From the NCBI GenBank assembly GCA_913058335.1, contig CAJXPX010000019.1, forward strand, positions 1 to 41,571: a DNA stretch of 41,571 nt. Reading direction: 5' to 3'. Of this stretch, positions 5,926 to 23,696 are shown piece by piece. The stretch is from an uncultured Hyphomonadaceae bacterium. Its GTDB lineage: Bacteria > Pseudomonadota > Alphaproteobacteria > Caulobacterales > Maricaulaceae. Numbering within the stretch: position 1 is the stretch's first letter; each line of letters opens with the position of its first letter. A program made the translations under genes and the position numbers. The notes under the pieces were generated by a model. It was not told the DNA's origin. It searched no databases and was given only the letters and a program-made list of their open reading frames with translations.

Positions 5926-5963
5926 CATCTCTCAATAATCAACCTTCAAAAAAGGAGTCTATT

Positions 5964-6592: not shown

Positions 6593-6601
6593 GAGGCAGC
6601 C

Positions 6602-9049: not shown

Positions 9050-9747
9050 TGCGCCGCACACTCAAAAAACTTCGTTCTCTAATTATCACCGCCGCGATTA
9101 TGCCTATGGTTTTCGCTGCGCCCGCCCATGCTATTTTTGGCTTTGGCGATATTGTGATTGACCCGACGAACCTCATTCAAAATGCGCTCACCGCGACGCG
9201 CACGCTACAGCAGGTCACAGACCAAGCCCGTATGCTGCGCAACCAAGTCACGCAAATGACGCGGCTTGGGATTTATGTTGGTGAGGACTTTGAGCGTACA
9301 CTCTCAGAGTTAAACCGTCTCACCCATCAAGCGCGGGGACTAACCTACCGTATTGATGAAATTGAGCGCGTCTTTGAGATGCACTTCCCGGATGCTTATG
9401 CGGACTGGTCAGTGACTGAGCAGGCCCAGATTGCAGATGCGCAGCAAGACGCCGCAATTATGGCCTTTCGCGATAGCATTCAAATGCAGGCGCAGATCAC
9501 TCAAGCTGTTGAGCAAGATAGCCGCCAGTTAAATGTGCTGATGAATGCCTCGCAAGGTTCAGCCGGAGAACTTTCGGCTGTTCAGGCGGGCAATCAAATC
9601 ACAGCGCTTTCAGCCAAGCAGACCATGCAGATGCAAACGCTGATGGCCGCGCAATATCGGGCCGAAGCGATTGAACGCTCGCGTGCGCTCTATGCAGAGC
9701 AAGCAGGCGCAGCCCGCCATGAGGCCTTTATGGGCCGGGGCGGCTAA
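9049..9747 (+). CDS. trbJ: P-type conjugative transfer protein TrbJ (VirB5-like)
   Basis: Periplasmic/pilus-associated protein of 232 aa. The signal peptide (about 1-27) ends in FAAPAHA. The mature start AIFGFGDIVIDPTNLIQN is characteristic of TrbJ. The rest is predicted long helices rich in Gln and Ala (coiled-coil-like, about 40-215). In IncP systems TrbJ is essential for mating-pair formation. No trbK entry-exclusion lipoprotein gene is found between trbJ and trbL, where it sits in many related clusters. Confidence 0.92.
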   Translation: MRRTLKKLRSLIITAAIMPMVFAAPAHAIFGFGDIVIDPTNLIQNALTATRTLQQVTDQARMLRNQVTQMTRLGIYVGEDFERTLSELNRLTHQARGLTYRIDEIERVFEMHFPDAYADWSVTEQAQIADAQQDAAIMAFRDSIQMQAQITQAVEQDSRQLNVLMNASQGSAGELSAVQAGNQITALSAKQTMQMQTLMAAQYRAEAIERSRALYAEQAGAARHEAFMGRGG

Positions 9748-9748
9748 G

Positions 9749-11137
9749 ATGATACCTATTCAACAAGTTACGCCGCCCGTTCCGCCGCCTTCTGACATGT
9801 CGGTGATTGATACCTTCATGGACACGTTCGCAAGCTATATTGATTCAGGTTTTGGTCTTCTAGGGTCAGAAGTAGATTTTCTGGTCGCGACCTTAATTGT
9901 CATTGATCTTGTCTTAGCAGGTGTGTTCTGGGCGATGTCGTCCGATGGCACCATCATGGCGCGCTTCATCAAGAAGGTGCTCTATATCGGCGTCTTTGCC
10001 TACATCATTGGTAACTTCGCATTTCTGGCGACGATCATCTTTGATAGCTTTTCGGGGCTTGGCTTGCAGGCAACGGGTACAAGCCTAACGCCCTCTGATC
10101 TCATGCGTCCCGGCTTTATTGCCAGCACGGGATTTGATGCTGCGTCGCCAATCTTAGACACGATTAAAGACCTTACTGGCCCCGTCGCATTCTTCGTCAA
10201 TATCGTTTTGATTGCAGTCTTGTTTCTGGCTTGGCTGATTACGATTTTTGCCTTCTTCTTTTTGTCGATACAGCTCTTTGTCACGATCATTGAGTTCAAG
10301 CTAACAACATTGGCAGGCTTTGTGCTCGTGCCCTTTGCACTCTGGAATAAGACATCATTCTTGGCCGAGCGCGTGCTTGGCAATGTGGTTTCCTCTGGCA
10401 TTAAGGTGATGGTGCTCGCTATCATCATCGGCATTGGCTCAACGCTCTTCACAGAAGTCACATCAGGGCTTTCCGGTGATGTGTCCCTTGAAGATGCAGG
10501 CGGCGTTATTCTCGCAAGTCTGGCTCTTTTTGCTCTGGGTCTATTTGGGCCTGGTATTGCGACGGGCCTTGTCACAGGCGCGCCCCAACTGGGTGCAGGT
10601 GCAGCGGTTGGAACGGTTGCCGCTGTTGGAGCCGCAAGCGCGGCTGGAGCAGCAGGTTCCCTCGGCGCGTCTAAAGCGGCAGGTAAAGCGGCCATGGGCG
10701 CGACAAAAGCGGGTGCTTCGCTCGGCGGCGGCGCGAGTATGGCTTTTGCCATGGGTAAAGCTGCAAGCGGTGCGGGAGGCGTCAAAGGCGCAGCCGCAGG
10801 TCTAAGCGCTGTCGCGCAAGCTGGAGCGGGCACAGTGGCCAATGCGGCCAAAAGCCAAGTCTCTAAGGCGGGCGGCGCGCTCAAATCGGCATCTACCAAA
10901 GGTGCGCGCGGCGCAATCACAGGCACGGGTGGTTCTATGGGGCCAGCCAAAGGCGGAGCGACTTCAGGCGCTGCGGAGGCTGCGAGCGGCGGGGGCGCTG
11001 ACCAAGCCCCTGATTGGGCGAAGAAAGCCAAATCCTCTTCCAACTCTCACCGCGCGGAAAGCGCAGCCCTTCATGCCTTAAGGGGCGGTGATAGCGGCGG
11101 CGCATCTTCCGGCCCCAAACTCAAAGATGATGAATAA
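9749..11137 (+). CDS. trbL: TrbL/VirB6 polytopic membrane protein
   Basis: Polytopic inner-membrane component of the channel, 462 aa. About six hydrophobic segments lie between residues 30 and 280. The last ~170 residues are a low-complexity Ala/Gly/Ser/Lys tail, as is common in TrbL. I start at ATG 9749, one base after the trbJ stop, with GGGGCGG upstream. A longer in-frame start at 9671 would lie inside trbJ and add 26 residues without family support. The low-complexity tail produces a long antisense open frame that is not a gene. Confidence 0.92.
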   Translation: MIPIQQVTPPVPPPSDMSVIDTFMDTFASYIDSGFGLLGSEVDFLVATLIVIDLVLAGVFWAMSSDGTIMARFIKKVLYIGVFAYIIGNFAFLATIIFDSFSGLGLQATGTSLTPSDLMRPGFIASTGFDAASPILDTIKDLTGPVAFFVNIVLIAVLFLAWLITIFAFFFLSIQLFVTIIEFKLTTLAGFVLVPFALWNKTSFLAERVLGNVVSSGIKVMVLAIIIGIGSTLFTEVTSGLSGDVSLEDAGGVILASLALFALGLFGPGIATGLVTGAPQLGAGAAVGTVAAVGAASAAGAAGSLGASKAAGKAAMGATKAGASLGGGASMAFAMGKAASGAGGVKGAAAGLSAVAQAGAGTVANAAKSQVSKAGGALKSASTKGARGAITGTGGSMGPAKGGATSGAAEAASGGGADQAPDWAKKAKSSSNSHRAESAALHALRGGDSGGASSGPKLKDDE

Positions 11138-11152
11138 ATAAAGGAGACTACA

Positions 11153-11866
11153 ATGGTCTGGAAAAGACAACAAAATGCGTATGGGAAAACGCCTATCGCA
11201 ACCACGCCTTATCAAAAGGCAGCGCAGGTCTGGGATGAGCGAATTGGCTCGGCCCGCGTGCAAGCTAAGAACTGGCGGCTCGCTACGCTTTTATCGCTTG
11301 GCGTCTCAGGCGTTCTTTCTGGCGGAATGCTATGGCAAGCCACGCAGAGCCTAGTCACGCCCTATGTCGTTGAAATCGACACGACGGGCGAAGTGCGGGG
11401 CGTAACGCCTACCGTGCAGGACTATGTGCCCTCTGACGCGCAAATCGCGTTTCAGCTCGCGGACTTCATTCGCAAGACGCGGGGCATTTCATCTGACCCG
11501 GTCGTTGTTCGTCAAAACTGGCTAGATGCATATGACTTTGCGACGAGCCGCGCGGCTGTCACATTGTCAGACTATGCAGCGGCAAATGATCCCTTCGCCG
11601 AAGTCGGGGTGCGGTCTGTTTCGATTGCTATTGAAAGCGTTGTTCGCTCATCAGAATCGACATTTGAAGTTCGCTGGCGAGAGACAGAATTTCGAACGGG
11701 CGTAAAGCAGCGAAGCTCGTCTCATACGGCGCAGCTTACCGTTGTGACTGACCCGCCTCGTGATGAAGCCACGCTCCAGCGCAATCCCTTGGGCCTCTAT
11801 GTCCACGCAATCAATTGGTCACAAGACCATTCCATCCCAACCCAAACACAAGGAGCCAAGCCATGA
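11153..11866 (+). CDS. trbF: Conjugal transfer protein TrbF (VirB8 family)
   Basis: Bitopic inner-membrane protein, 237 aa, that nucleates channel assembly. A cytoplasmic N-terminus (NAYGKTPIATTPYQKAAQVWD) precedes one membrane helix at about 42-65 and a periplasmic VirB8 domain beginning TPYVVEIDTTGEV. AAAGGAG lies upstream of ATG 11153. The last four bases overlap trbG (ATGA). Length is normal. Confidence 0.94.
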   Translation: MVWKRQQNAYGKTPIATTPYQKAAQVWDERIGSARVQAKNWRLATLLSLGVSGVLSGGMLWQATQSLVTPYVVEIDTTGEVRGVTPTVQDYVPSDAQIAFQLADFIRKTRGISSDPVVVRQNWLDAYDFATSRAAVTLSDYAAANDPFAEVGVRSVSIAIESVVRSSESTFEVRWRETEFRTGVKQRSSSHTAQLTVVTDPPRDEATLQRNPLGLYVHAINWSQDHSIPTQTQGAKP

Positions 11867-12897
11867 GAGCTTTAGCCTTAACCCTTATCCTGTCTTCAGC
11901 CGCTTTGAGCGGATGCTCGCATCTATCCAAACCAACCGTGCCCGATTTTAAATTGGATGATGCAATCTTTGAGTCGGCCATCATTCAGCCTGAAATTACG
12001 GAGACTACGCATGGGCCTCAAAAACCAGAAACCGTTATTGTCGAACGCTTCACGGCGGTTCCGTTACCGGGGCAGCTTAAGCTACGAGAGAGCTATATTC
12101 CGCATCGCCAAAATGCGGGAAAGCCGCATGAGGTTATTGATGCTGCCAATGTAGGCGCAAAGGTCGGGCCTAATCCTGATGCCTATGTAAATGCGATACA
12201 GGTTTATCCCTTCACCAAAGGCGCTCTCTATCAAGTCTTCACAGCGCCTGAGCAGGTGACGGATATTGCGCTTGGGTCTGGCGAGCGGCTTATCTCCGTT
12301 TCAGCGGGTGATACTGAGAATTGGATTTTAGGCGATACGCTTTCCGGCGAAGGTGAGACCGAGCAGGTTCATATACTGGTGAAGCCCATCAAGAGCGGCC
12401 TAACAACAAACCTCATCATCACGACATCAGAGCGCGTCTATCACGCCGAGCTTACCTCTTATCGAGAAACTTATATGGCGGCAGTGTCATGGCGCTATCC
12501 ACTTCAGGGGCTAATCAGCCTATCGAAGTCGTTGGTGGCGAAAGCTAAGCCAGCTTCATTTACTGGCTCCAATACAGCTGTGCCGTCTCGGGCTATCCCA
12601 ATAGGGCTATCCGTGGATGCGTTGAAGTTTCGGTATGAGATTGATGGAGACACGCCGCATTGGCGTCCACTTCGGGCTTTCGATGATGGCCGCAAAGTCT
12701 ACATCCAATTCCCGGCGCGTATCGACCAAGGTGAAGCGCCGCCCTTATTTGTGGTCAGCAGCGAGGGTGAAACCCAGCTTGTCAACTACCGGGTTAAAGG
12801 CCGTTACTATGTGGTGGACCGTCTATTTGCCCGTGCCGAGCTTCGCCTCGGTGAAAAAGACCAACAAGTTGTTCGCATTGATCGGACCCAGTCATGA
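11863..12897 (+). CDS. trbG: TrbG (VirB9 family) lipoprotein
   Basis: Outer-membrane-complex subunit of 344 aa. The N-terminus is a lipoprotein signal with lipobox LSGC (Cys18). The N-terminal domain covers roughly 80-210, and the C-terminal VirB9 domain (PSRAIPIGLSVDALKFRYEI onward) interacts with the VirB10-like TrbI. ATG 11863 is chosen because it gives the signal peptide, has AGGAG at 11851-11855 and overlaps trbF by ATGA. The longer frame from 11815 would start inside trbF. Confidence 0.94.
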   Translation: MRALALTLILSSAALSGCSHLSKPTVPDFKLDDAIFESAIIQPEITETTHGPQKPETVIVERFTAVPLPGQLKLRESYIPHRQNAGKPHEVIDAANVGAKVGPNPDAYVNAIQVYPFTKGALYQVFTAPEQVTDIALGSGERLISVSAGDTENWILGDTLSGEGETEQVHILVKPIKSGLTTNLIITTSERVYHAELTSYRETYMAAVSWRYPLQGLISLSKSLVAKAKPASFTGSNTAVPSRAIPIGLSVDALKFRYEIDGDTPHWRPLRAFDDGRKVYIQFPARIDQGEAPPLFVVSSEGETQLVNYRVKGRYYVVDRLFARAELRLGEKDQQVVRIDRTQS

Positions 12898-14168
12898 GCG
12901 GGGCGGGCCAAAAAAAATCGGCAGCCCTTCAAATCAAAGGCAGTCCGCCATCGGCCAAGCGCTTTAACAAACGTGTCTTAGGCACGCTATTGGGAGGCTC
13001 GGCACTGGCTATTCTATTAGCAGCAGGCTTTGCTTTGCGTTCGCCAGAGAGCGAAGCGGTTGCACCTCAAGAGCTTTATAATACCACAAACAAAGCCTTG
13101 CCTGATGCTTTGAATGCACTTCCCGAAAGCTATAGCGAGGTTGAGCCAAGTCCTCAGTTTGGCATACTTGGGCCGCCTTTGCCTGGCGATATCGGGGCCG
13201 GTCTTTATGGAAAGCCAAAGGACATCCCAACAGACAATCCTTTCCGGTATCAGCCGCCGTCTTCATATGCGCCAGCTCCGGCGCAGCGCTATGGAGGTAC
13301 AGTCTCTCAGACTTCATCAAATGCCCCAACAGGGCGAACGTCGAATTTGTTCTTTATCGCGAATGATGGCGGAGGTGATAGCGCTAAGGCCGCTCAGGCT
13401 TCAGCGCCAACCTTTGCTGATCCTGGAGTCGCGGCATTGGCAGCATTGTTGGGACAAAGCGGGAATGGCTTACTTCCTCAATCTTCCTCTAAAGGCGGGC
13501 GCGGCCAAACCACGAATGATAAAAGTGATCCGTTCACGTCAGATTTGACTGATGCAGAGATTTATAATCCGCATAGTTTGCGGACGCCTGTATCGCCTTT
13601 TCAAGTTATGGCGGGAACAATCATTCCAGCCAGCCTTGTTACTGGATTGAATTCGGATTTACCGGGACAGGTCATAGCGCAGGTCACCGAGAATGTTTAT
13701 GATACGCCTACGGGTCAGCATTTATTGCTGCCTCAAGGCACTCGGCTATTAGGGCGTTACGATAGCGATATCGATGATGGTCAGTCTCGTGCTCTTGTTG
13801 TCTGGAACAGGCTTATACGTCCTGACGGCTCTTCTCTCGTCATAGAGAATTTACCCGGTGTAGATTTGTCTGGTCAGGCAGGTTTGCGGGATGATGTCGA
13901 TCGACATACGGGAAGTCTTTTCAAAGCCGCGATTCTCTCATCCGTTTTATCCATCACCGCTGAACTCGGCACTGACGAGGAAGATGAACTTGCGGAAGCC
14001 ATTCGTTCTGGCGGGCAGCGCACCATCAACCAAACGGGGCAAAGGGTGGTTACGCGGGCTATATCACGCAAGCCAACGCTAAAGGTTCGTCCTGGTTGGA
14101 AGCTTGGTGTCATCGTCAATCGAGACCTCGTTCTATCACCCTACAATTTATCTAATGGAGGCCGCTAA
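12894..14168 (+). CDS. trbI: TrbI (VirB10 family)
   Basis: Scaffold that spans inner membrane, periplasm and outer membrane, 424 aa. It has a short cytoplasmic N-terminus, one membrane helix (about 26-47), a Pro/Ser/Gln-rich periplasmic linker, then the conserved VirB10 beta-barrel domain (about 225-420). That domain includes VMAGTIIPASLVTGLNSDLPG, PQGTRLLGRYDS and the C-terminal GWKLGVIVNRDLVLSPY. It overlaps trbG by four bases and the next gene by one. Confidence 0.95.
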   Translation: MSGAGQKKSAALQIKGSPPSAKRFNKRVLGTLLGGSALAILLAAGFALRSPESEAVAPQELYNTTNKALPDALNALPESYSEVEPSPQFGILGPPLPGDIGAGLYGKPKDIPTDNPFRYQPPSSYAPAPAQRYGGTVSQTSSNAPTGRTSNLFFIANDGGGDSAKAAQASAPTFADPGVAALAALLGQSGNGLLPQSSSKGGRGQTTNDKSDPFTSDLTDAEIYNPHSLRTPVSPFQVMAGTIIPASLVTGLNSDLPGQVIAQVTENVYDTPTGQHLLLPQGTRLLGRYDSDIDDGQSRALVVWNRLIRPDGSSLVIENLPGVDLSGQAGLRDDVDRHTGSLFKAAILSSVLSITAELGTDEEDELAEAIRSGGQRTINQTGQRVVTRAISRKPTLKVRPGWKLGVIVNRDLVLSPYNLSNGGR

Positions 14169-14410
14169 TGGCTAAACCAAATAAGCCCACTTTGCGTATT
14201 GCGAAGTTACCAAACTTGACGCCCGTTAAGCTGACTGTGAGCCTAGAACCAGAGGTTCATCAAATGTTGGAGGACTATGCTAAAATTTACGGCGATAATT
14301 ATGGAGAGGCCGTCAAACCTGCGGAACTCGTGCCGTCTATGATTACTGGATTTCTGGCGACAGACAATGGATTCAAGCGCGCTCGGAAAGCCCTCGTACC
14401 TTCAGAGTAA
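14168..14410 (+). CDS. DUF2274 domain protein closing the trb operon
   Basis: 80-aa soluble protein, matching the DUF2274 proteins that routinely follow trbI in this type of transfer operon. KLPNLTPVKLTVSLEPEVHQML at about 13-34 suggests a ribbon-helix-helix-like strand and helix, so a small regulator is possible. The function is not established. It overlaps trbI by one base, and a hairpin follows within ten bases of its stop. Confidence 0.85.
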   Translation: MAKPNKPTLRIAKLPNLTPVKLTVSLEPEVHQMLEDYAKIYGDNYGEAVKPAELVPSMITGFLATDNGFKRARKALVPSE

Positions 14411-14415
14411 TTTTG

Positions 14416-14447
14416 CTTGGCACTAAAAATGGGAGGGTAGTGCCAAG
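14416..14447. terminator. Perfect 10-bp hairpin after the trb operon
   Basis: CTTGGCACTA at 14416-14425 and TAGTGCCAAG at 14438-14447 form a perfect 10-bp stem with a 12-base loop, starting five bases after the DUF2274 stop. TTTT precedes the stem at 14411-14414 and AAAA follows, so it is not a standard plus-strand intrinsic terminator. It may still stop or stabilise the trb transcript. The rest of 14448-14529 shows nothing I recognise. Confidence 0.4.
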
Positions 14448-14529
14448 AAAATATATGATTTCTGCAATGGCGGCCAAGCGTACATCAGACGGTCTAATCT
14501 ATCCCACCCAAAAAAAAGATATCCAGGGG

Positions 14530-14573
14530 TTGATTTAAGAACATCACATGTCTATATGTTCGATAATAGAACA
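14530..14573 (+). promoter_or_regulatory. Candidate promoter and operator of the cargo operon
   Basis: TTGATT at 14530-14535 and TATATG at 14553-14558, 17 bases apart, could be -35 and -10 boxes; GATAAT at 14562-14567 is an alternative -10. The palindrome TGTTC-GATAATA-GAACA at 14557-14573 overlaps them and lies 13 bases before the first cargo start, where an XRE repressor would be expected to act. The half-sites resemble GTTC-N7-type SOS boxes but are inverted rather than direct. Promoter assignment is by eye. Confidence 0.45.
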
Positions 14574-14586
14574 ATAGAGAATTTGA

Positions 14587-14961
14587 ATGTTGGAAAATAA
14601 AACAGAAGAATTGGCCGCGTTTGATGCCAAAAAAGACGAACTAATTGATGCTTTGTCGGAATGGTATGACGAAGAGATTGAAGCGATTGATGCAGGCATT
14701 GAAGAAGGTGTTCCGCAAGGTGATGCCGGAACAATTTCGTCTTGTGGACCTGCTATCGACTCCAAGCGTGTTTTAGATGCGAGTGCAGTAACAAAAAAAG
14801 TCATTGGTATCGATGTTCCTCCAAAAATCATTAGAAAAGGCGGGTACAATGATTTAGATGATCTTGTCTCACATTTGGTCCCAAGATTACGTAAAGTAAT
14901 TTCTGGTGAAATCAAAATTCCTAAAAAAAAGAAAAACAAAAAAACGAAGGTTAGCTCCTAA
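14587..14961 (+). CDS. Unrecognised 124-aa protein, first gene of the cargo operon
   Basis: I do not recognise this family. The N-terminal half (1-50) is strongly acidic and probably helical (ELAAFDAKKDELIDALSEWY, then EEIEAIDAGIEEG). The C-terminus is very basic (IPKKKKNKKTK). A central SSCGPAIDS and a helix DLDDLVSHLVPRLRKVI lie between. The charge split suggests binding to a basic partner and to nucleic acid, but this is inference. It overlaps the XRE gene by one base (TAATG), so a role with the regulator pair (antitoxin, co-regulator or sensor) is plausible. The ribosome site is weak. Confidence 0.75.
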   Translation: MLENKTEELAAFDAKKDELIDALSEWYDEEIEAIDAGIEEGVPQGDAGTISSCGPAIDSKRVLDASAVTKKVIGIDVPPKIIRKGGYNDLDDLVSHLVPRLRKVISGEIKIPKKKKNKKTKVSS

Positions 14962-15299
14962 TGAGTGATGAAGAAGTTAAATGGGCAAAAATTGGTGAAA
15001 GACTTAAGAATGCGCGAGAATATTTGGATTTAAGCCAAGACGAAGTTGCTAAGTCACTAGGTTTAAAGCGTCCTGCGATATCGAAAATTGAAAATGGTAA
15101 GAGGAAGGTTGATGCTGTAGAGTTGGGTCAATTCTCTCAACTCTATGAACAATCAATTGAGTCCTTAACTGGTACAGCACCAGATGTACCATTACCAACG
15201 AATGTTAAAGCATTGGCCAGAGCGGCGACTGATCTGTCTGAAGGTGATAGGGAAAAGTTACTCGATTTCGCAAAATTCCTCCAAAATCGGCCTGAGTAA
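14961..15299 (+). CDS. XRE-family helix-turn-helix regulator
   Basis: 112-aa DNA-binding protein. The HTH_3/XRE domain spans about 11-65, with LSQDEVAKSLGLKRPAISKI as the two recognition helices and ENGKRKV after them. The C-terminal part (85-112) is a helical DLSEGDREKLLDFAKFLQN tail, as in phage-type repressors. It overlaps its neighbours by one base on each side, and the next gene is an ImmA/IrrE peptidase. This is the ImmR-ImmA type of pairing, in which the peptidase cleaves the repressor under stress. It probably represses its own operon via the palindrome at 14557-14573. Confidence 0.92.
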   Translation: MSDEEVKWAKIGERLKNAREYLDLSQDEVAKSLGLKRPAISKIENGKRKVDAVELGQFSQLYEQSIESLTGTAPDVPLPTNVKALARAATDLSEGDREKLLDFAKFLQNRPE

Positions 15300-16324
15300 T
15301 GAGAAGGTCCATGGTAAGAACTCGATATGAGGATGCTCGATTGGGAGCAATAGCAGAAGCTAAGTCTCTCCACCGGAGATTGGATTCTAAACACATCCTT
15401 TCTAAGAACAAGCAAGGTTTTGTAGATGTATTCGGAGTAATTGAAGCGCTTAATATTCCGCTTGTTTTCGACAAGCTTGATGCATTAGGATTTTGCCTTC
15501 CTTTTCCATCAAAAGGAATAATGATCAATAAAAACCGTACACTTCATATACAGCGCTTTACCGCAGCTCATGAACTCGGGCATGCCGTCTTGGAACATCA
15601 GGGAAGCATAGACCATAGATTGAATTACCGCGGTGGAATGGATGCACCATCAAGTGACCCAATTCAAGAAGTGGCAGCTGATGCTTTCGCCGCAGAATTC
15701 ATGCTGCCGAGATGGTTATATAAACACCATATACAAACACAAAAGTGGACAGTAGATCGTCATCTCAGAAACCCTGAAATTGTATACCAGCTTTCATTGC
15801 GCATGGGCGCGAGTTATGAAGCAACCTGCTGGGGCTTACTGAGCCATAAAATTTTGTCTAAAACATTTGTTGAAGAATTAGTTTCAACAGAGGTGGCACT
15901 GATTAAACGTTCGACTGTTGCGGATAGTCTCCCAGGTAATAGTTGGGCGAATGTTTGGCGCCTGAGTCAAAAGGATAACGGCGCATACTATTCAGCAGAT
16001 ACTCAAGATTTGTTGAGACTTGATTTGTCAGAAGGAAATATACCTCAATCAGCATGGGACGTTTCTGCCCTTCGCGATGTTGGGTTTGAAGTTGTTTCTG
16101 ATGAAACGCTGTCCCAGTTATGTAGTTCGAGCAATGTTTTTGACCGCAGGGTAGTAGTACGACCGCCAAGAAAAGAATTCGGTGAAGTTTTAATTTCTCA
16201 ACGAAATCCAGAAATCCCATTTGCTGCTGAAAACCCAATGCTCGGTGTAATGCTTGACCTTGGAGGTAAAGAAAACGGAAAGTTTTCACGAAGCTTGAAA
16301 CGGAAAAAAGGCCTAGTCGCATGA
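15299..16324 (+). CDS. ImmA/IrrE-family zinc metallopeptidase
   Basis: 341-aa protein with the gluzincin motif HELGH at residues 91-95 and a downstream EVAADAFAAEFMLP (Glu123/Asp127 as likely further ligands), the ImmA/IrrE signature. The C-terminal ~170 residues lie beyond the usual short ImmA core and are not recognised; they could be a sensor domain. Known relatives cleave an XRE repressor to induce a mobile element or a damage response. The adjacent XRE gene is the obvious substrate. The start overlaps the XRE stop by one base; an alternative ATG is at 15311. It ends in ATGA overlap with the TS-like gene. Confidence 0.9.
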   Translation: MRRSMVRTRYEDARLGAIAEAKSLHRRLDSKHILSKNKQGFVDVFGVIEALNIPLVFDKLDALGFCLPFPSKGIMINKNRTLHIQRFTAAHELGHAVLEHQGSIDHRLNYRGGMDAPSSDPIQEVAADAFAAEFMLPRWLYKHHIQTQKWTVDRHLRNPEIVYQLSLRMGASYEATCWGLLSHKILSKTFVEELVSTEVALIKRSTVADSLPGNSWANVWRLSQKDNGAYYSADTQDLLRLDLSEGNIPQSAWDVSALRDVGFEVVSDETLSQLCSSSNVFDRRVVVRPPRKEFGEVLISQRNPEIPFAAENPMLGVMLDLGGKENGKFSRSLKRKKGLVA

Positions 16325-17190
16325 ATGAAGGTTTGTCAGTAAAGCTAATTGAGGGTGATACGATACCTGAGGTTTGGTTAAAAGCAGTTCGTTTTTTGTC
16401 AAAGCAAAAAGGACGAGAGTTTTTCGATTTGGTATTGCATGTTAGAAAACCTACCGTGGTTAACAAAGCTGATAAAGCTACCATAAAAATGGTTGAAGCC
16501 TTTCTCCAAACACACAAGGGTATGCCCGTTGCTACAGTTGCTGAAACAATTTTCCCGATGTCTTACTATAAGCGCGGAGGAAAAAAGGCAGTATATGAGG
16601 ATTATGTAAGAGACATTATAAAGATACGTAGTGAGCGTGATGATGAACACAACGGATGGGGGCTTTACGCGCTTAGGATGATTAATTTTATTATGCCTGA
16701 CGGTAAACCCTTCAACCAGTTAGAGCGGGTAATTGAAAAAGTTGGGTTTAAGGTAAAATATCAAAGCTGTTTTGAGGTCAATGCATCCGAAGATATTCGC
16801 AGAAATTACTTTGAAGATGAGGAGGATGCGGCTGATTTATCTGTTTTTGACCCATCGACGGATGCTGGGAGGTATTATGGTGGCCCTTGTCTAAGTCATG
16901 TAAGCTTTAAACGTGACAAAAGAGTGGATCAAATGAGGTTAAATGCTACCTATAGGTCTCACTTCTACATTCAGAGAGCGCTTGGCAACCTGATAGGTCT
17001 CAGCAATTTATTATTATTCGTTTCAAGAGAGACGAAACAAAACATAGGACCATTAACGATCAACGCCACTTATGCTAAACTCGATATTGGTTCAGATAAT
17101 AAGGGAACGTGGACCACTAAAAACGTCATAGCCCTTATAGACGAATGTGAAGCTCTGTATCATAATGATTCGGCACTGAATGATTCTTGA
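16321..17190 (+). CDS. Thymidylate-synthase-like protein with altered active site
   Basis: 289-aa protein whose C-terminal half follows thymidylate synthase. GGPCLSHVSF places the nucleophile-equivalent at Cys190. YRSHFYIQRALGN at 211-223 matches RSxD...N, with Arg212, Ser213 and Asn223 (pyrimidine-binding) kept. LTINATYAKLD corresponds to the ribose-binding HxY strand. The N-terminus (IPEVWLKAVRFL, residues 15-26) fits the TS first helix. By my alignment, the folate-site Asp (E. coli 169) is Phe215 and the HxY residues are missing. It may therefore be a modified-pyrimidine synthase, such as a hydroxymethylase, or a nucleotide-binding sensor. TS fold is fairly secure; activity is not. It overlaps immA by four bases. 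Confidence 0.75.
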   Translation: MNEGLSVKLIEGDTIPEVWLKAVRFLSKQKGREFFDLVLHVRKPTVVNKADKATIKMVEAFLQTHKGMPVATVAETIFPMSYYKRGGKKAVYEDYVRDIIKIRSERDDEHNGWGLYALRMINFIMPDGKPFNQLERVIEKVGFKVKYQSCFEVNASEDIRRNYFEDEEDAADLSVFDPSTDAGRYYGGPCLSHVSFKRDKRVDQMRLNATYRSHFYIQRALGNLIGLSNLLLFVSRETKQNIGPLTINATYAKLDIGSDNKGTWTTKNVIALIDECEALYHNDSALNDS

Positions 17191-17207
17191 AAGGAAAGGA
17201 GATTGCT

Positions 17208-17780
17208 ATGGGAACTAAAAAGAAATCTGCTGACCTCATAAATGAGCTGCAAAGAGAACAGCTTACCCATGATAAAGATTATCACCCTGATATTTTATCT
17301 TTGGACACTACCAAGCGCGTTATTCACATGTCTCTTCACAATGCAAAATATGCTGCGCGTTTTGTAGCTGCTCACGAAGATAGTGATAGAGTTTTACATC
17401 GTGAAACACTAACAGATGCTTTCATTATCTCAGTTGCAACCGCGAACGCACTTACACATGATTTGAGGAAGTCTATTTCTGACGAAATGTTGAATCTAAA
17501 TGATTTGGCAACGGTTGGGTCTGAGCTTAAAAAAGCACAAGGCAGCAACCAGTCCTTTCATCGGCGCTATTCCGCAGAAGTTGGGCAGATGGCGAAGGCG
17601 TGTGAGTCCTTGGACCATCTCGAAAACTATCCTTTCCGTGAAAAGCTTACGGAGGCTAACGCAAATATCTTCAAATTGGTATTGAGTGATGCGGCAGACA
17701 AGGATGTAGATATCGTAAAAGAATATAGGTCTAGACTTTCACAAGTTGAAGCAAATTCCCCTTTTTCAATATTTCTTTGA
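17208..17780 (+). CDS. All-helical protein, possibly a degenerate MazG-like pyrophosphohydrolase
   Basis: 190-aa protein predicted to be entirely helical. KRVIHMSLHNAKYAARFVA (36-54) followed by HRETLTDAFIISVATANAL (64-82) resembles the central helices of MazG-like dNTP pyrophosphatases (EExADvlIyllrLA). Most of the metal-binding Glu residues are not present; Glu66 and Asp70 remain. The family is therefore uncertain, and an unrelated helical scaffold is possible. ATG 17208 is chosen over an upstream TTG because AAAGGAG sits 6-7 bases before it. It lies 17 bases after the TS-like gene and 5 bases before the deaminase-fold gene. Confidence 0.6.
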   Translation: MGTKKKSADLINELQREQLTHDKDYHPDILSLDTTKRVIHMSLHNAKYAARFVAAHEDSDRVLHRETLTDAFIISVATANALTHDLRKSISDEMLNLNDLATVGSELKKAQGSNQSFHRRYSAEVGQMAKACESLDHLENYPFREKLTEANANIFKLVLSDAADKDVDIVKEYRSRLSQVEANSPFSIFL

Positions 17781-17785
17781 CATAA

Positions 17786-18493
17786 ATGTTCTGGAGCAAT
17801 GAAAAATTAAAGTCGGAGCTTCCTAGCCTGATCAATCGTTATAATCTTAATGATGTTGGGCAGGCGAACTATACTCTACATATAGGAAATGAAGTTTACA
17901 TTACGCCTAATGGAGATCCATCAAGACTAGGCAAAGATCGTCAAATCGCGCTTGCAAATAACCAATTTTTTGAAATACCTCCTGGTCAGTTTGCTTTTCT
18001 ACTTACAAAGGAGAAAGTGACTGTACCTAAAAACGCTTTGGCATTTATTTCAGTCAGGGCAAGATACAAATTCCAAGGTTTGGTAAATGTTTCAGGCTTT
18101 CATGTCGACCCAGGTTTTTCAGGCAAGCTAGTATTTGCCGTTTTTAATGCTGGGCCATCAACTGTGACGCTCAGCGAAGGAGAGGCATGTTTCCATATTT
18201 GGTACGCTGATCTCGATGGCAATTCTGATACACCTGTACAGCCAGGCTATGATAGACTGCCACCTAAAATAATATCTAAGCTTGGAGACACTGTCGTTTC
18301 CTTGAGTTCTCTAAATTCAAAAGTAAATGCTTTAGAAAAAATGGTCTTTAGGTTGCTTGTCACTGCAACAATTTTATTTGGTCTACTGGGTTCTGTTATA
18401 ATTAAAAATATGATGAATGGATCAGATAAGCCTGCTGTTGAAGCTGTTACTCCTGTAGTTCAACAGTCCTCTGAAACCACTACCGACAAATAG
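17786..18493 (+). CDS. dCTP deaminase/dUTPase-fold protein with C-terminal membrane anchor
   Basis: 235-aa protein. Residues 25-145 follow the trimeric Dcd/dUTPase fold: EIPPGQFAFLLTKEKVTVP, ISVRARYKFQGL, VSGFHVDPGFSGKLVFAVFN, LSEGEACFHIWY. The structural Asp108-Pro-Gly is kept. Aligned from memory to E. coli Dcd, the catalytic Glu138 is Ala118, Ser111 is Ala92 and Arg115 is Phe96. Deamination therefore looks unlikely, and the Arg-rich dUTPase C-terminal arm is absent. A short helix (170-185) leads to a single membrane helix at about 187-205 and a Pro/Thr/Val tail. An anchored nucleotide sensor is my inference. Related active dCTP deaminases act in anti-phage dNTP depletion. Confidence 0.85.
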   Translation: MFWSNEKLKSELPSLINRYNLNDVGQANYTLHIGNEVYITPNGDPSRLGKDRQIALANNQFFEIPPGQFAFLLTKEKVTVPKNALAFISVRARYKFQGLVNVSGFHVDPGFSGKLVFAVFNAGPSTVTLSEGEACFHIWYADLDGNSDTPVQPGYDRLPPKIISKLGDTVVSLSSLNSKVNALEKMVFRLLVTATILFGLLGSVIIKNMMNGSDKPAVEAVTPVVQQSSETTTDK

Positions 18494-18501
18494 GTATTAG
18501 T

Positions 18502-19512
18502 GTGAGAGAGCTACAGACGACCGAGGTTTTTGAAACCTATTGGAAGTTCGCAGCACAAAGGCAAAATATCTATTACAATAGATTGAAAGGCGAAGATCAA
18601 CCTTGGTCGAGTGACAAAATTCTACAACAATATAGATTTACTAACGCTTATCGCGCAGCAGATAGAGTAAGCCAATACCTAATAAAAGAAATCCAGTACA
18701 ACCCTCAAAGGTCAAGTCGACCCGATGATATATTTCTGAGAACGTTGTTGTTCAAAATTTTCAATAAAATTGAGACTTGGGAATCGATTGAACTAGCAAA
18801 TGGGAAACCGATTGAGGCATCAACCATAAATTATGACCGAGTAGCGAAGGTTCTTTCTGAGAGAATGGCGCAGTCTATACCTATCTATTCGGCGGCATAT
18901 ATAATGCCGTCTCCAAAATTTGGCTATGATCGGAAATTTGCTAATCATCTGGCACTTCTCAAAAAAATGATTGAGGACAGTCTTCCAGAAAGGCTACGTC
19001 AAAGACCTGGTTTGAGCGATGTATATGATTTGTTGCTCTCATATTCTGGTTTAGGACCATTTTTGGCTTTTCAATTTTCGATTGATTTAAACTATTCCAG
19101 CCTACTTAATTTTGAAGAAGACGAATTTGTCGTTGCAGGCCCCGGAGCTATTGATGGTATATCAAAATGTTTCCATAATTATCGGAACTATAAACCTGCT
19201 GAGATCATATATCATGTCACAGCGAACCAAGATAAATACCTTAATGAATACGAAGTGAAGTTCCGACCTTTATTCGGAAGAAAACTGAAACCGATAGACT
19301 GTCAAAACTTATTTTGTGAGATATCAAAGTATGCTCGTGTTGCGCATCCAGAGGTCAAAGGGGTTTCTGGCCGCAATAGAATTAAACAATCATACTCACG
19401 AAACTATAGTCAACTACCAGAGCCATATTTTCCGGATAGGTGGGGCATTAATAACGAGGTAAAAGACTTTATAGCTAAACATCCATCGATAATAGGAAGA
19501 CAATTAGTGTAG
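18502..19512 (+). CDS. HMUDK_hel-like putative nucleotide/base-modification protein
   Basis: 336-aa protein resembling the helical domain family described with 5-hydroxymethyl-dU DNA kinases and thymine-hypermodification enzymes (annotated as 'nucleotide kinase domain' or 'putative DNA base hypermodification protein'). Hallmarks are YRFTNAYRAADRVSQYL at 44-60, LLFKIFNKIETWE at 82-94, GLGPFLAFQFSIDLNYS at 183-199 and AGPGAIDGI at 212-220. The last ~70 residues (DCQNLFCEISKYAR onward) also fit. No P-loop kinase domain is attached. The fold is thought to be DNA-glycosylase-like. The start is GTG 18502 with a weak ribosome site. Its place beside a TS-like gene supports a role in pyrimidine chemistry. 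Confidence 0.72.
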   Translation: MRELQTTEVFETYWKFAAQRQNIYYNRLKGEDQPWSSDKILQQYRFTNAYRAADRVSQYLIKEIQYNPQRSSRPDDIFLRTLLFKIFNKIETWESIELANGKPIEASTINYDRVAKVLSERMAQSIPIYSAAYIMPSPKFGYDRKFANHLALLKKMIEDSLPERLRQRPGLSDVYDLLLSYSGLGPFLAFQFSIDLNYSSLLNFEEDEFVVAGPGAIDGISKCFHNYRNYKPAEIIYHVTANQDKYLNEYEVKFRPLFGRKLKPIDCQNLFCEISKYARVAHPEVKGVSGRNRIKQSYSRNYSQLPEPYFPDRWGINNEVKDFIAKHPSIIGRQLV

Positions 19513-19522
19513 TGAACCGGAT

Positions 19523-19912
19523 ATGATATACGGCATTGGAACCGATATATGTGCAATAGAACGAATTCAGCGCTCTTATGAAAAAAGGGGGCAAATCTAT
19601 GCGGCCACATTTTGTAATTCGAACGAGTTAATGCAAATTGGAAAATCCTCAAGTCCCGCTTTGCATTTAGGTAAAATACACTGTGCTAAGGAATGTATTG
19701 GGAAAGCTGTAGGTACTGGCCTAGTCCCAGATTTTTGGTGGGATGACATTGAGGTCAACGTCAATAATGAGGACAACGAAGTTTTTCTGTTTGAGAATGG
19801 CATGGGGTTTATACGCAAATCACTAAAGATTGATGGTTCGTGGAAGCTGCACTTGTCGCTAAGCAATACAAGTAAACTAATTTCAGGAGTATGCATTATT
19901 TCAGCTTCTTAA
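19523..19912 (+). CDS. AcpS-like 4'-phosphopantetheinyl transferase
   Basis: 129-aa protein with the AcpS signatures YGIGTDICAIERI at 3-15 (Mg-binding Asp8) and CAKECIGKAVGTG at 54-66 (Glu57, Lys61). Length matches holo-ACP synthases. Such enzymes transfer phosphopantetheine from CoA to a serine of a carrier protein. Active-site acids are kept, but the C-terminal SISHT-type motif reads SLSNTS. No carrier protein or fatty-acid gene is nearby, so it is unlikely to be the housekeeping acpS. It lies ten bases after the HMUDK_hel-like gene and closes the operon. Partner and role are unknown. Confidence 0.85.
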   Translation: MIYGIGTDICAIERIQRSYEKRGQIYAATFCNSNELMQIGKSSSPALHLGKIHCAKECIGKAVGTGLVPDFWWDDIEVNVNNEDNEVFLFENGMGFIRKSLKIDGSWKLHLSLSNTSKLISGVCIISAS

Positions 19913-20081
19913 TGGCAAGATTTTTTGCACCGTAAGGCCCGCTATAGGGGTGAAATTCCTTAGAATGTTTACCATTTAGGTTTTTAGTTAATTCTCCATT
20001 TAACACGCAAAAACTCGCAAACCTCAGATTACTCCAATTTATTACCCTTAAGAATTTTGAATACTTCGAGTAAGCTTAAGT

Positions 20082-20249
20082 GTGACCGACAAAGTAACAG
20101 AAATTCAAAAAGGCTTAGCAAAACTCACATGGGTAATCGAAAGCCATAGCGAAGACGCATGGCCACTTTTCGAGCGCCTCGAAAAGGAACTACTTCAGTT
20201 AAATTCACGGCAGGACCAACTACAGAAATATCGTCAGAAATTTAACTGA
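20082..20249 (+). CDS. Small conserved-looking helical protein (55 aa)
   Basis: An uninterrupted GTG-initiated frame of 55 codons, predicted as two charged helices. It contains WPLFERLEKELLQL, a phrase I associate with small hypothetical proteins of alphaproteobacteria. It converges on the integrase gene, overlapping its 3' end by 16 bases. The ribosome site is poor (GAG eleven bases upstream). Function is unknown; a role with the integrase is possible but unproven. The 169 bases before it (19913-20081) are AT-rich and hold nothing I recognise beyond room for a promoter. Confidence 0.6.
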   Translation: MTDKVTEIQKGLAKLTWVIESHSEDAWPLFERLEKELLQLNSRQDQLQKYRQKFN

Positions 20250-21568
20250 GTAAAATCGAGGGTCATTTTGGACATTTCATCTCGCCTAAATGTGAGTGAA
20301 CCACCATCTCCATATTCAGGCCGATTGTTGTAATGGCCAATCAACTTGCATCTAAGTCCATAGTCTAGGCCAGCTTCTAACATCCGTTTCTCAAAGGAGT
20401 GTCTGAAGGAATAAATACGATGATTTGACGTTGGTAAGAGTTCTCGTTTCTTGAAATATTTCCCAAGCGTTGAGGATAGAGAGTCAGATTTCTCTCGGTA
20501 ACGTGGAAATCCGGTAGGACATCTTTTCATAGCTTCAAGTGAAACACCTAAAAGCGGCACGTCGCGCTTAGCTGACTTTGATTTTAGTTGACGATTTTTC
20601 TGCGGCCGAATCTTTAGATGAGGGACTTCATGATCAAGAACGATATGCTCAGGCTTTAGATTGGCAATCTCGCTTGGACGACATCCAGTCTCAATTAACG
20701 CAAGCACAATGCACCTAGCTTCAAGGTTCAGCTCATCAAGTGCGCCGGGCGCCAAAATTTTATTCTTAATCCACTCATTTTCAAAAGCTGGAATGTCTTT
20801 GTAGACAACATTCTTAAAGCGAAGGTTTCTGAAGGGATTGTCGCGTTTATCTTCGCCTTGGTAATCCCAGAAGCGCTCAAACAGTATTCGTAAGTTTGTA
20901 AGGTCTTTGTTTGCCGAGTTTGCGTGAAGCGGTTTGGATCCGTCTGTTGGGTTTATACGGCTGCTCCACCAGCCATATACTTGCTTGGCATGGGTGCGCG
21001 TAATGGCATCCATCGGCAAGTCTCCGCAAATGGCGACAAAATTATTGACCGCCCGTCGTTTCACCTTTGTCCAGCTGGAAATTTGGCTCTTTGATTTCCC
21101 TTTTAAATCGGCAGCACAAATCGTGTTACAATAGACGCTGAACGCTTCAGTTATTGGTATAGCTGTTGGCTTAACTAGGCCAAGTATAGCGTCAGCATCT
21201 GATGTTGCTGTAGGGGCCTTCACATTCAGCTTTTTTAGGCGGTCTAGAATTTCGTCTAGTGTGGCCTCGACGGCTAAGTCTTCAGCAGGAATATACACAA
21301 AGCCCCGCGACATAGCACGGTGCTTTGCGGCCTCGTAACTATCAAGAGCCTTGGGCTTACCGGATTGAAGCGTTCGCCAGAAAAGCTCATCGGCTTTAGC
21401 TAAGGCGTCCCGCCTTGCGCGAGCGATTTCAATAGAGGCTGTATCAAGCGCAACGCGGATTGTACCGCGTGCATCGAATGATTGGTATATTGAGGGGACT
21501 CTTCGGTGATAATTCCAGCGGTCTCCGCGGCGTTTAAGGTATTGGTTCAAGCGTTTCATTACAGGCAT
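20234..21568 (-). CDS. int: Tyrosine recombinase (ICE integrase) with DUF6538-like N-terminus
   Basis: Site-specific recombinase of 444 aa with this start. The N-terminus YLKRRGDRWNYHRRVP is the DUF6538-type arm-binding start. A core-binding domain spans about 130-260, then the catalytic domain: Arg in ETGCRPSEIANL, Lys in the beta-hairpin after LKIRPQKNRQLKSK, Arg in YSFRHSFEKRML (the usual His of HxxR is Tyr), LIGHYN, and a probable nucleophile Tyr in RPEYGDGG. It faces the tRNA-Thr 3' end. I prefer ATG 21568 (or 21559). A TTG at 21604 would add twelve residues encoded by a 12-bp tandem repeat. Confidence 0.93.
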   Translation of the reverse strand: MPVMKRLNQYLKRRGDRWNYHRRVPSIYQSFDARGTIRVALDTASIEIARARRDALAKADELFWRTLQSGKPKALDSYEAAKHRAMSRGFVYIPAEDLAVEATLDEILDRLKKLNVKAPTATSDADAILGLVKPTAIPITEAFSVYCNTICAADLKGKSKSQISSWTKVKRRAVNNFVAICGDLPMDAITRTHAKQVYGWWSSRINPTDGSKPLHANSANKDLTNLRILFERFWDYQGEDKRDNPFRNLRFKNVVYKDIPAFENEWIKNKILAPGALDELNLEARCIVLALIETGCRPSEIANLKPEHIVLDHEVPHLKIRPQKNRQLKSKSAKRDVPLLGVSLEAMKRCPTGFPRYREKSDSLSSTLGKYFKKRELLPTSNHRIYSFRHSFEKRMLEAGLDYGLRCKLIGHYNNRPEYGDGGSLTFRRDEMSKMTLDFTQLNF

Positions 21569-21570
21569 GT

Positions 21571-21603
21571 TGTAGCACATTTTGTAGCACAATTTGTGGC
21601 ACA
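21571..21603. repeat. Three 12-bp-spaced direct repeats before the integrase
   Basis: TGTAGCACA at 21571-21579 and 21583-21591 and TGTGGCACA at 21595-21603 are spaced exactly 12 bases. They lie between the integrase start and the tRNA attachment site, where arm-type integrase sites or operators are expected. In the minus-strand frame they would encode a repeated C-H/Y-K/N-L/M tetrapeptide. Confidence 0.75.
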
Positions 21604-21627
21604 AAGCGTGTGGAAATCTAAGTGTCG

Positions 21628-21691: not shown

Positions 21692-21712
21692 TGGTGCCCC
21701 CACACGGACTCG
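21692..21712. other. Predicted ICE attachment site (attR/attL) in the tRNA-Thr 3' end
   Basis: Tyrosine integrases that sit beside a tRNA gene generally recombine within its 3' part (T-arm to acceptor). The gene's 3' end faces the integrase, 124 bases from the preferred start. The core length cannot be read here because the second copy is outside the window. Confidence 0.5.
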
Positions 21713-21767
21713 AACCGCGGACCCCCTGATTACAAATCAGGTGCTCTACCAGCTGAGCTATAGGGGC
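21692..21767 (-). tRNA. tRNA-Thr (anticodon TGT)
   Basis: On the minus strand the 76-nt gene folds as a cloverleaf. Acceptor GCCCCTA pairs with TGGGGGC, the D-arm contains AGCTCAGCTGGTAGAGC, and the anticodon stem-loop is CTGAT-TTGTAAT-CAG with anticodon TGT. The T-arm is CGCGG-TTCGAGT-CCGTG. Discriminator A and CCA are encoded (TGGT at 21692-21695 on the plus strand). The gene is intact, as expected when the element carries the duplicated 3' end. Confidence 0.97.
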
Positions 21768-21961: not shown

Positions 21962-23677
21962 ATGGCTCGTATTCTTATTACCTCCGCTCTGCCCTATATA
22001 AATGGCGTCAAACATCTCGGCAATTTGGCCGGTTCAATGTTGCCCGCTGATATATATGCCCGCGCTATGCGGCTGATGGGGCATGAAGTTCTCTATATTT
22101 GCGCCACAGATGAGCACGGCACGCCGGCAGAACTGGCGGCCCAAGCGGCTGGTATGGAGGTCGCAGAGTACTGCGACAAAATGCACGAGGCGCAAAAGCG
22201 GGCGGGCGATCAATTTGGCCTTTCTTATGATTATTTCGGGCGCTCTTCTGCCCCGTCCACCGCCAAATTGACTCAGCACTTTGCGCAAGTTCTCGAAGAA
22301 AACGGCTTGATTGAAGAGCGGGTGTCCAAGCAGGTATATTCCAATGCGGATGGACGGTATTTGCCGGATCGTTATGTCGAGGGAACATGTCCGAATTGTG
22401 AGTTTGAGAAAGCCCGCGGGGATCAGTGCGATAATTGCGGCAAGCTCCTTGACCCGGTCGATTTGATTGATCCTTATTCTGCGGTTTCAGGCAGTCACGA
22501 CGTTGAAGTGCGCGACACAAATCACCTTTATCTCTTGCAGTCCAAAATGAGCGACCGCCTGCGGTCATGGGTGAACGATTCCACTGGGTGGCCGCCGCTA
22601 GCAAGTTCAATCGCGCTTAAATGGCTGGATGAAGGTCTGCGCGACCGCTCTATCACACGTGATTTGGATTGGGGTATTCCTGTGACGGGTGCAGACGGGA
22701 AGATCCGTAAGGGATTTGAGGGCAAAGTTTTTTACGTTTGGTTCGACGCGCCCATCGCCTATATCGGCGCAACGCAGGACTGGGCCACGGACAATGGCGG
22801 CGATTGGGAGAGCTGGTGGCGCACAGATAAGGGTGCGGAAGACGTACAATATGTTCAGTTCATGGGCAAGGATAACGTCGCTTTCCATACGCTCTCTTTC
22901 CCCACGACGATTATGGGTAGCGGCGAGCCGTGGAAGCTCGTGGATCAGTTAAAAGCTTTCAACTGGGTGACCTGGTATGGCGGCAAGTTTTCAACGTCTC
23001 AGGGCCGAGGCGTTTTTATGGATCAGGCAATAGAGATTGCCCCGTCCGATTACTGGCGCTGGTACCTTATGGCAAATGCGCCTGAAGGATCTGACGCGGC
23101 CTTTACGTGGGAAGATTTTCAATCTTCAGTCAACTCTGATTTGGCCAATGTTCTCGGGAATTTTGTCAACCGGATTACTAAATATTGTGTTGGGAAGTTT
23201 GACGGGGTGGTGCCGGAGGGCGGGGAGCCGGGAGAAGCTGAAGAGTGGCTCGAAAAAGAACTCTCAGATCGCCTTCCAAAGCTCATCAAATTTTATGAGT
23301 CCCGTGATTTCCGCAAAGCCATGGGCGAAACTCGCGCAATTTGGGCGGCCGGAAATGAATATCTCACACAAGCCGCGCCCTGGACACACTATAAGACGGA
23401 TGTAGACCAGGCCGCTATTGGTGTTCGCCGCGGACTTAATCTTGTGGCGCTATTCGGTATTATTGCTCAACCCGTCATTCCTGAGGCGGCCACAAAAATT
23501 CTTGATGCGATTGGCGTTCCGGATAATCGGCGCAGTTGGAATTTTGGTGAGGTAAAAGACCTTCTTGAGGCCCTGCCGATTGGTCACACTATAGCCGCGC
23601 CGGAACTCTTATTCTCAAAAATTGAAGAAGACGCGGTGGCGGACTGGACAAAGCGTTTTGGCGGTGGTGACGCCTAG
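21962..23677 (+). CDS. metG: Methionyl-tRNA synthetase
   Basis: Class I synthetase that charges tRNA-Met in the cytoplasm, 571 aa. The N-terminal [17 protein letters not shown] includes the HIGH-type motif (HLGN at 18-21). The knuckle has CPNC at 143-146 and CDNC at 156-159 for zinc. The KMSKS-type loop is [10 protein letters not shown] near 342-351. The anticodon-binding helical domain fills the C-terminus. It lacks the extra C-terminal dimerisation domain of the longer E. coli form, as in many alphaproteobacteria. It is the first chromosomal gene outside the ICE. The 194-base gap 21768-21961 should hold its promoter, and no strong ribosome site is seen. Confidence 0.97.
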
Positions 23678-23696
23678 ATGAATATGTTCGAGGCGG

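Follow-up and report, generated by a model that had tools for sequence, protein, structure and literature searches.

What chemistry could bring an acyl carrier protein (ACP), a thymidylate synthase (TS)-like enzyme and an XRE/ImmA regulatory switch together in one operon on an integrative and conjugative element (ICE)? The question is raised by eight plus-strand genes, numbered 1 to 8 in map order (14587-19912), on contig CAJXPX010000019.1 of an uncultured Hyphomonadaceae bacterium. The window that we analyzed is this entire contig, 41,571 bp in length, and the left end of the ICE lies outside it. An initial annotation had read the genes as ICE cargo that joins pyrimidine-metabolism folds to an XRE/ImmA switch, and as a candidate conflict system. 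We found that a core of the operon recurs in other genomes in a conserved order. We propose, at about even confidence, that the operon encodes an inducible, mobile conflict system, probably directed against phages or other mobile elements and built on carrier-protein-dependent pyrimidine chemistry.

The initial annotation named co-occurrence of these genes elsewhere as its own test, and a neighbourhood search recovered the core widely. A tblastn search with gene 4 matched 22 of 72,556 plasmid records and, at E 0.01, none of 50,697 phage records; a profile scan with the TS-like family found 166 relatives on GTDB contigs and one on viral contigs. We retained 80 of the 166 GTDB relatives and retrieved 14 of the 22 TS-bearing plasmid records. 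Including those reached through searches with gene 7, the TS-bearing loci numbered 104; dereplication at 90% TS identity left 76. We made component models from the plasmid neighbours. Because the scan was seeded by TS, the presence of the TS-like gene in every locus is by construction, which is not the case for the other components. The core consists of a small open reading frame (ORF; the ACP), an XRE gene, an ImmA gene, optionally a papain-type peptidase gene, and the TS-like gene. ImmA was found in 75 of the 76 loci, XRE in 74, ACP in 69, the papain-type peptidase in 65 and MazG in 63, followed by uracil-DNA glycosylase (UDG) in 46, relatives of gene 7 (HMK, for its HMUDK_hel/aGPT-Pplase1 family) in 25, AcpS in 16, a dCTP-deaminase/dUTPase-fold protein (Dcd-like) in 15, gene 5 in 7 and an Sfp-type transferase in 4. 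Of the 68 loci that have ACP, XRE, ImmA and TS, 65 keep them in that order on one strand; in the remaining three, XRE precedes the ACP start merely through an overlong XRE ORF. The window's own combination of HMK, Dcd-like protein and gene 5 was found again in 4 of the 76 loci. Hosts span several bacterial phyla and one haloarchaeon, and include proteobacteria, Acidobacteria, Polyangiaceae, Bacteriovoracales, Gemmataceae, Streptomyces, Nostoc and Haloarcula. On the Haloarcula marina plasmid (L011), an Sfp-type transferase, HMK, a gene 5 homolog and a dTMP kinase lie upstream of the core.

Gene 1 (14587-14961, 124 aa) contains Asp58-Ser59, a phosphopantetheine attachment motif in which both residues are invariant across 15 aligned homologs. 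Among family members matched by our model the attachment Ser is present in 69 of 69 and the Asp in 63 of 69, and in four loci missed by the model visual inspection showed an ACP-like ORF in the same position, with the motif DS in two and NS in the other two. A profile of the 15 homologs retrieved acyl carrier proteins from the PDB (best E 8.3e-5), with the attachment Ser in register, and carrier proteins made up nearly all of the 60 PDB chains among the matches listed for the family profile. A Streptomyces homolog matches PF00550 at 1.2e-7, and NCBI annotates the Streptomyces copies as acyl carrier protein; the gene 1 homologs of L009, L112 and L134 gave no PF00550 match. On these sequence grounds we assign gene 1 to the acyl carrier proteins.

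Gene 8 (19523-19912) is predicted to encode an AcpS-type 4'-phosphopantetheinyl transferase (PF01648, 8.2e-10; TIGR00516, 5.9e-13, which is under that model's cut-off). In its family Asp8 is kept in 15 of 16 sequences and Glu57 and Lys61 in 16 of 16; Asp8 and Glu57 are presumably the Mg/catalytic residues. Gene 8 is therefore a probable AcpS acting on gene 1, onto which it would load the phosphopantetheine arm. Twenty of the 76 loci, namely 13 of the 25 with HMK and 7 of the 51 without it, have an AcpS or Sfp-type transferase no more than 7 kb from the TS-like gene. Neither the ACP nor the probable AcpS had been recognized in the initial annotation, and together they alter the likely chemistry of the operon.

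Gene 4 (16321-17190) matches TIGR03283 at 3.9e-6, far under that model's curated cut-off. The TS fold, which the initial annotation had put forward as open to refutation by structure search, held up: the structural model (pLDDT 87.3) gave 396 Foldseek matches at E<=0.001, the best being 5jnh, the CMP hydroxymethylase MilA (5.2e-9, probability 1.00). In TS the nucleophilic Cys attacks C6 of the base, an Arg binds the phosphate and an Asn binds the uracil. The TS-like family retains Cys190 and Asn223 in 76 of 76 sequences and Arg212 in 70 of 76, and the alignment gives an Arg-to-Asn spacing identical to that of TS in the PDB. At residue 215, the column of the folate-binding Asp (which we take to be Asp169 in E. 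coli TS), the family has Tyr in 31, Phe in 11, His in 6, Ser in 1 and Asp in 1 of 50 sequences (alignment A6). We refer to gene 4 as TS-like rather than as a TS because the folate Asp is absent at the aligned position. By the mechanism of TS, the family should still bind the nucleotide and attack C6 through its Cys, with a change in the folate partner. Because the ACP and the TS-like gene occur together so constantly, we infer that the ACP supplies the partner in the gene 4 reaction. Cys190 would attack a uracil nucleotide at C6 and activate C5, and the group placed on C5 would come from, or be, the ACP arm in place of methylene-folate.

The genes that follow add nucleotide and DNA-base functions. 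Gene 5 (17208-17780) encodes a conserved protein of no known family with many invariant His, Asp and Glu residues; it matches phrog_19333 (1.9e-14), whose function is unknown, and a PDB profile search returned nothing under E 0.33. The suggestion that the operon contains MazG did not survive, as the window yielded no MazG: Pfam matched none in gene 5, and a profile comparison with the MazG of the relatives gave a probability of 0.1%. MazG with MazG_C is present in 63 of the 76 relatives. Gene 6 (17786-18493) has the Dcd/dUTPase fold that had been assigned to it (PF22769, 2e-12, 47.9 bits versus a cut-off of 27; TIGR02274, 1.7e-18, under cut-off) and a hydrophobic C-terminal segment. The position of the presumed deaminase Glu, which we take to be Glu138 in E. 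coli dCTP deaminase, is Ala or Ser in 6 of 6 aligned family members, and one "dCTP deaminase" in the PDB also lacks Glu there. The Dcd-like protein may not be a deaminase. Together with gene 5, or with MazG-MazG_C in most relatives, it would tune nucleotide supply.

The family assignment of gene 7 (18502-19512) to HMUDK_hel was borne out by a match to PF18723 (1.5e-100, 336.7 bits versus a cut-off of 25), its sole Pfam domain. We rejected gene 7 as a 5-hydroxymethyl-deoxyuridine (5-hmdU) DNA kinase, given a model composed of helices only (pLDDT 91.8), without the P-loop fold, and PF18723 alone. The top 14 Foldseek matches of this model are DNA glycosylases (best E 0.025, query TM-score <=0.31), which is only suggestive of a DNA glycosylase. 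The pyrimidine-nucleotide theme seen in the initial annotation is supported.

HMK and UDG alternate among the relatives: UDG occurs in 46 of the 76 loci, HMK in 25, both in none and neither in 5 (Fisher 1.8e-15, a value not corrected for relatedness). In three of the five loci with neither, the contig ends a short way past the TS gene. The TS tree, from which the fragmentary or split rows L012, L041 and L130 were omitted, shows 6 changes of UDG/HMK state, of which at least 3 fall on supported branches. Since the two alternate and never co-occur, we suggest that they play equivalent parts, acting on a DNA base of the uracil or thymine type; in our proposal, HMK, or UDG in other relatives, would act on the base that results from the TS-like reaction. 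A Gemmataceae metagenome-assembled genome carries a natural HMUDK_hel-MazG-MazG_C fusion (L099:10736-12712), which ties HMK to the MazG module. Just past the UDG-MazG genes, one locus has a calcineurin-like phosphoesterase-TS domain fusion (L013:10789-12969) and another a metallophosphoesterase gene adjoining a canonical TS gene (L021:10843-14098).

An element that hypermodifies thymines of its own or its host's DNA, as phages do, and so evades restriction during transfer would account for some of these parts. HMK-family genes are present in 395 of the 50,697 phage records and stand beside TS genes in phages, the best structural match of gene 4 is a hydroxymethylase, MilA, and the setting is mobile. 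The M6-like phage cassette, as set out in a passage of one study, comprises a pyrimidine hydroxymethylase, aGPT-Pplase1, a nucleotide kinase and aGPT-Pplase2, and so includes the family of gene 7 (PMC9476957). Among the eight proteins, however, there was no match to a P-loop 5-hmdU kinase, aGPT-Pplase2, a radical SAM enzyme or a pyridoxal-phosphate enzyme. Many relatives swap HMK for UDG, which would remove bases instead of building them, and the ACP, the papain-type peptidase and the chagasin domain described below are left unexplained. We consider such self-marking unlikely.

Inducibility of the proposed conflict system would come from genes 2 and 3, whose identity as an XRE/ImmA pair was upheld. 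Gene 2 (14961-15299, 112 aa) encodes an XRE-type helix-turn-helix repressor (HTH_3, 1.4e-10; PADLOC capH, 9.9e-13 over residues 10-109), and gene 3 (15299-16324) an ImmA/IrrE metallopeptidase (PF06114, 8.8e-14; PADLOC capP, 3.8e-15) with HELGH at residues 91-95; the HExxH motif is kept in 75 of 75 family members. ImmA/IrrE peptidases cleave XRE repressors. A 17-bp dyad, TGTNNGANNNTCNNACA, precedes the core in 46 of 72 loci when up to one mismatch is allowed, 26 of them exact. In 100 mononucleotide shuffles the mean was 0.28 and the maximum 3, and a downstream control stretch gave 0 of 72. The window has two copies. O1 (14557-14573, TGTTCGATAATAGAACA) lies 14 bp ahead of the first start codon, with one mismatch to the pattern; O2 (14588-14604, TGTTGGAAAATAAAACA) overlaps the gene 1 start, lies 31 bp from O1, and has one mismatch to the pattern and three to O1. 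A spacing of 31 bp was the commonest between sites, with 21 counts, against 12.5 already reached by a shuffle control that kept strong sites. The XRE protein would bind these tandem operators across the first start codon and hold the operon low until a trigger leads ImmA to cleave it, in the manner of CapP and CapH.

In its usual form the core includes a peptidase and, apparently, a matching inhibitor. All 65 papain-type peptidases keep papain's Gln, Cys, His and Asn. Chagasin (MEROPS I42) inhibits papain-family peptidases, and a chagasin domain (PF09394, best 4.1e-11) is present on the ImmA adjoining the peptidase in 48 of the 57 proteins scanned with Pfam, out of 65 from peptidase-bearing loci. 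A GY/F/H loop is present in 62 of 63 ImmA proteins beside the peptidase; strict motifs score lower (RPW 45/65, G.GY 33/65). In loci without the peptidase PF09394 was found in 0 of 10, and ImmA is shorter in nine of them. Restrained by the ImmA chagasin domain, the peptidase would act in most relatives as an extra effector or a processing step. The window operon has neither part: its ImmA keeps its length with eroded chagasin motifs (NIPQSAW/CSSNV/RNPEIP) and no PF09394 match. On the TS tree the window and three peptidase-bearing loci form a supported group of four, so the window has probably lost both peptidase and chagasin domain. A search for a displaced peptidase gene elsewhere in the host found none, which in a single genome shows little.

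A dangerous peptidase paired with an inhibitor domain, its catalytic residues invariant in 65 of 65, would also fit a guard system, in which a nucleotide, or a phage TS or dUTPase, is detected by the TS-like protein and the ACP, with no product being made, and killing of the cell falls to the peptidase or some other component. Many defence systems work by guarding. The TS-like Cys, however, is invariant in 76 of 76 sequences, beyond the needs of mere binding, and both the window and the Streptomyces/Nostoc clade are without the peptidase gene, so that the peptidase is not the general effector. We regard a guard system as distinctly improbable.

A small biosynthetic cluster that makes a modified nucleoside, as an antibiotic or a signal, appears very improbable. 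It would draw on an ACP, a phosphopantetheinyl transferase and a TS-like enzyme with MilA, which we assume belongs to mildiomycin synthesis, as its top fold match, but we recognized no synthetase, ligase or exporter in the operon, the regulator is of the XRE/ImmA type, and the genes are spread over distant phyla and plasmids with UDG as a partner. A chance gathering of unrelated genes on an ICE, whose cargo is often mixed, is scarcely credible and for the core we reject it: gene 5 is limited to 7 and the Dcd-like protein to 15 of the 76 loci, but the core order is kept in 65 of 68 and the set of HMK, Dcd-like protein and gene 5 recurs in 4 of 76.

We return to the proposed conflict system built on carrier-dependent chemistry. 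Its gene composition, core conservation, catalytic residues, dyad, UDG/HMK alternation and association of chagasin domain with peptidase are observed; repressor cleavage, the ACP-TS reaction, its substrate and the defence role are deduced. Defence genes adjoin some copies: Lamassu LmuA/LmuB lies at L112:11484-16653 on a Sinorhizobium fredii NXT3 plasmid, and an annotated Shedu gene lies by a Bradyrhizobium copy. A conflict role is also favored by the mobile settings, by an independent study that predicts several of these domains as defensive (PMC13092281), and by the HMK and MazG_C families elsewhere, which adjoin TIR and phospholipase genes. A more specific version, which we advance tentatively as a possibility, is that the ACP arm takes the place of folate in a TS-fold enzyme, which links C5 of deoxyuridylate either to a group borne on the carrier or to the arm thiol; that UDG and HMUDK_hel proteins interchangeably handle the product or the base; and that the whole is controlled by an XRE/ImmA switch which in its usual form restrains a papain-type peptidase through chagasin. 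Such a system would be the first in genome conflict to modify nucleotides or DNA bases by way of a carrier protein.

Several observations weigh against the proposed conflict system. Gene 1 of the window by itself matched no ACP model in Pfam; 56 of the 76 relatives have no nearby AcpS and would depend on that of the host; and no acyl-loading enzyme was recognized in the operon. Loss of the folate Asp is read from a remote alignment. The contrast of the 46 of 72 loci with a dyad to shuffles and control stretch is somewhat inflated, as the pattern was derived from the same loci that were counted, and the shuffles were mononucleotide only. The link between chagasin domain and peptidase is consistent on the tree but comprises 2 independent pairs, too few to reach significance (sign test p 0.5). 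Genes 1 and 4-8 have no PADLOC match, and the defence neighbours were chosen by eye, with 4 of the 8 scanned having no PADLOC match. Outside the TS-like search, several HMK loci are without the core, and the position of HMK beside dnaQ/dnaE on plasmids weighs against a defence role.

Of 20 plasmid records with HMK, 14 were inspected and 7 have the core; among six other genomes of the same class with HMK, three have the core, two have only a MazG_C-type MazG and one has neither. HMK stands without the core in L124 (a Gloeothece plasmid), L110 (Parabacteroides), L125 and L127, where its neighbours are TIR genes, a CBASS-type phospholipase, Nmad2 and radical SAM genes; these loci possibly represent a second class of HMK-based conflict systems. 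On Sphingomonadales plasmids (L111 and L122, 7.3-13.2 kb), HMK lies without the core between a dnaQ-like exonuclease gene and dnaE.

The surroundings of the operon agree with the initial description of AT-rich ICE cargo between a transfer module and an integrase. To the left, a plus-strand conjugation module (183-14410; Pfam scan of seven ORFs) encodes a relaxase, a type IV secretion system coupling protein, a VirB11-type ATPase, TrbE, TrbL, TrbI and a DUF2274 protein; to the right, a minus-strand tyrosine integrase gene of the ICE (20234-21604; PF00589, 1.1e-7) adjoins a tRNA-Thr gene (21692-21767, ARAGORN). In 1-kb bins, GC content is 0.385-0.429 at 14000-19999, versus 0.512-0.571 at 9000-13999, and it is 0.507-0.537 at 22000-23999. 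ORF coordinates bear out the compact layout reported earlier, with all eight ORFs intact, overlaps of 1, 1 and 4 bases and gaps of 17, 5, 8 and 10 bases; the 17-base gap is counted from the ATG of gene 5 at 17208, and the ORF list starts that gene at a TTG at 17187. A 55-aa ORF (20082-20249) between operon and integrase has no visible tie to the operon. Among plasmid records bearing the TS-like gene, 13 of 22 are typed as conjugative. Since the host has its own ThyA (contig C7) and AcpS (contig C13), genes 4 and 8 are additional to these. TS-like matches are so scarce among 60 near genomes (17 of the same genus), being limited to the window and one genome of the same family (E 7e-4), that the operon appears to have been acquired recently in the host lineage.

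Acyl carrier proteins are known from lipid and natural-product synthesis. If our proposal is true, their roles extend to nucleotide chemistry in conflicts between genomes, and folate is not needed by every TS-fold enzyme. Together with the adjoining papain-type peptidase, the ImmA-chagasin fusion would constitute a bacterial protease-inhibitor switch absent from the literature searched, and the PF18723 and MazG_C families, hitherto known by prediction only, gain a conserved cellular context. The operon is small, portable and easily cloned, so both its chemistry and its defence role are directly testable.

Each part of the operon resembles a known system and departs from it. Like CapH/CapP of CBASS, ImmR/ImmA and DdrO/IrrE, it has an XRE gene followed by an ImmA-type metallopeptidase gene, with full-length capH and capP matches, and a dyad operator precedes it. 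It differs in that the ImmA of its relatives bears a chagasin domain and that repressor cleavage here is predicted; PADLOC matched no CBASS CD-NTase or effector among the eight proteins. Gene 4 shares its fold, nucleophilic Cys, phosphate-binding Arg and uracil-binding Asn with TS and with dUMP, dCMP and CMP hydroxymethylases; unlike them, its family has Tyr, Phe or His at the folate-Asp position in 48 of 50 sequences and is linked to an ACP. Phage thymidine hypermodification of the M6/ViI type likewise combines a HMUDK_hel/aGPT-Pplase1 member with a TS-fold enzyme. The operon, in contrast, has an ACP, AcpS, XRE and ImmA, and its eight proteins include no 5-hmdU kinase, no aGPT-Pplase2 for the second transfer step and no tailoring enzyme; no phage record matches the TS-like protein at E 0.01. 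The chagasin domain occurs in the relatives beside a papain-type peptidase gene; here it is fused to a metallopeptidase within an XRE-controlled operon, an arrangement missing from the window, and the literature searched contained no work joining chagasin with ImmA and IrrE.

The nucleotide-modifying systems of DefensePredictor share aGPT-Pplase, MazG, MazG-C, dUTPase and TS domains with this gene set (PMC13092281). Passages of that study predict aGPT-Pplase, MazG, MazG-C and dUTPase domains as defensive and report validated systems with TS and 5hmdU-kinase domains, with UDG and HTH named in a figure legend; its main text does not mention acyl carrier, phosphopantethein, papain or C1 peptidase (PMC13092281). 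That the composition is undescribed, as first supposed, agrees with the literature searched, in which we found no published system of this composition; a partial earlier mention is possible in work on thymidine hypermodification or nucleotide-modifying conflict. Every single domain is already known, and what appears to be new is the pairing of an ACP with a TS-like enzyme and the circuit formed by ImmA, chagasin and peptidase.

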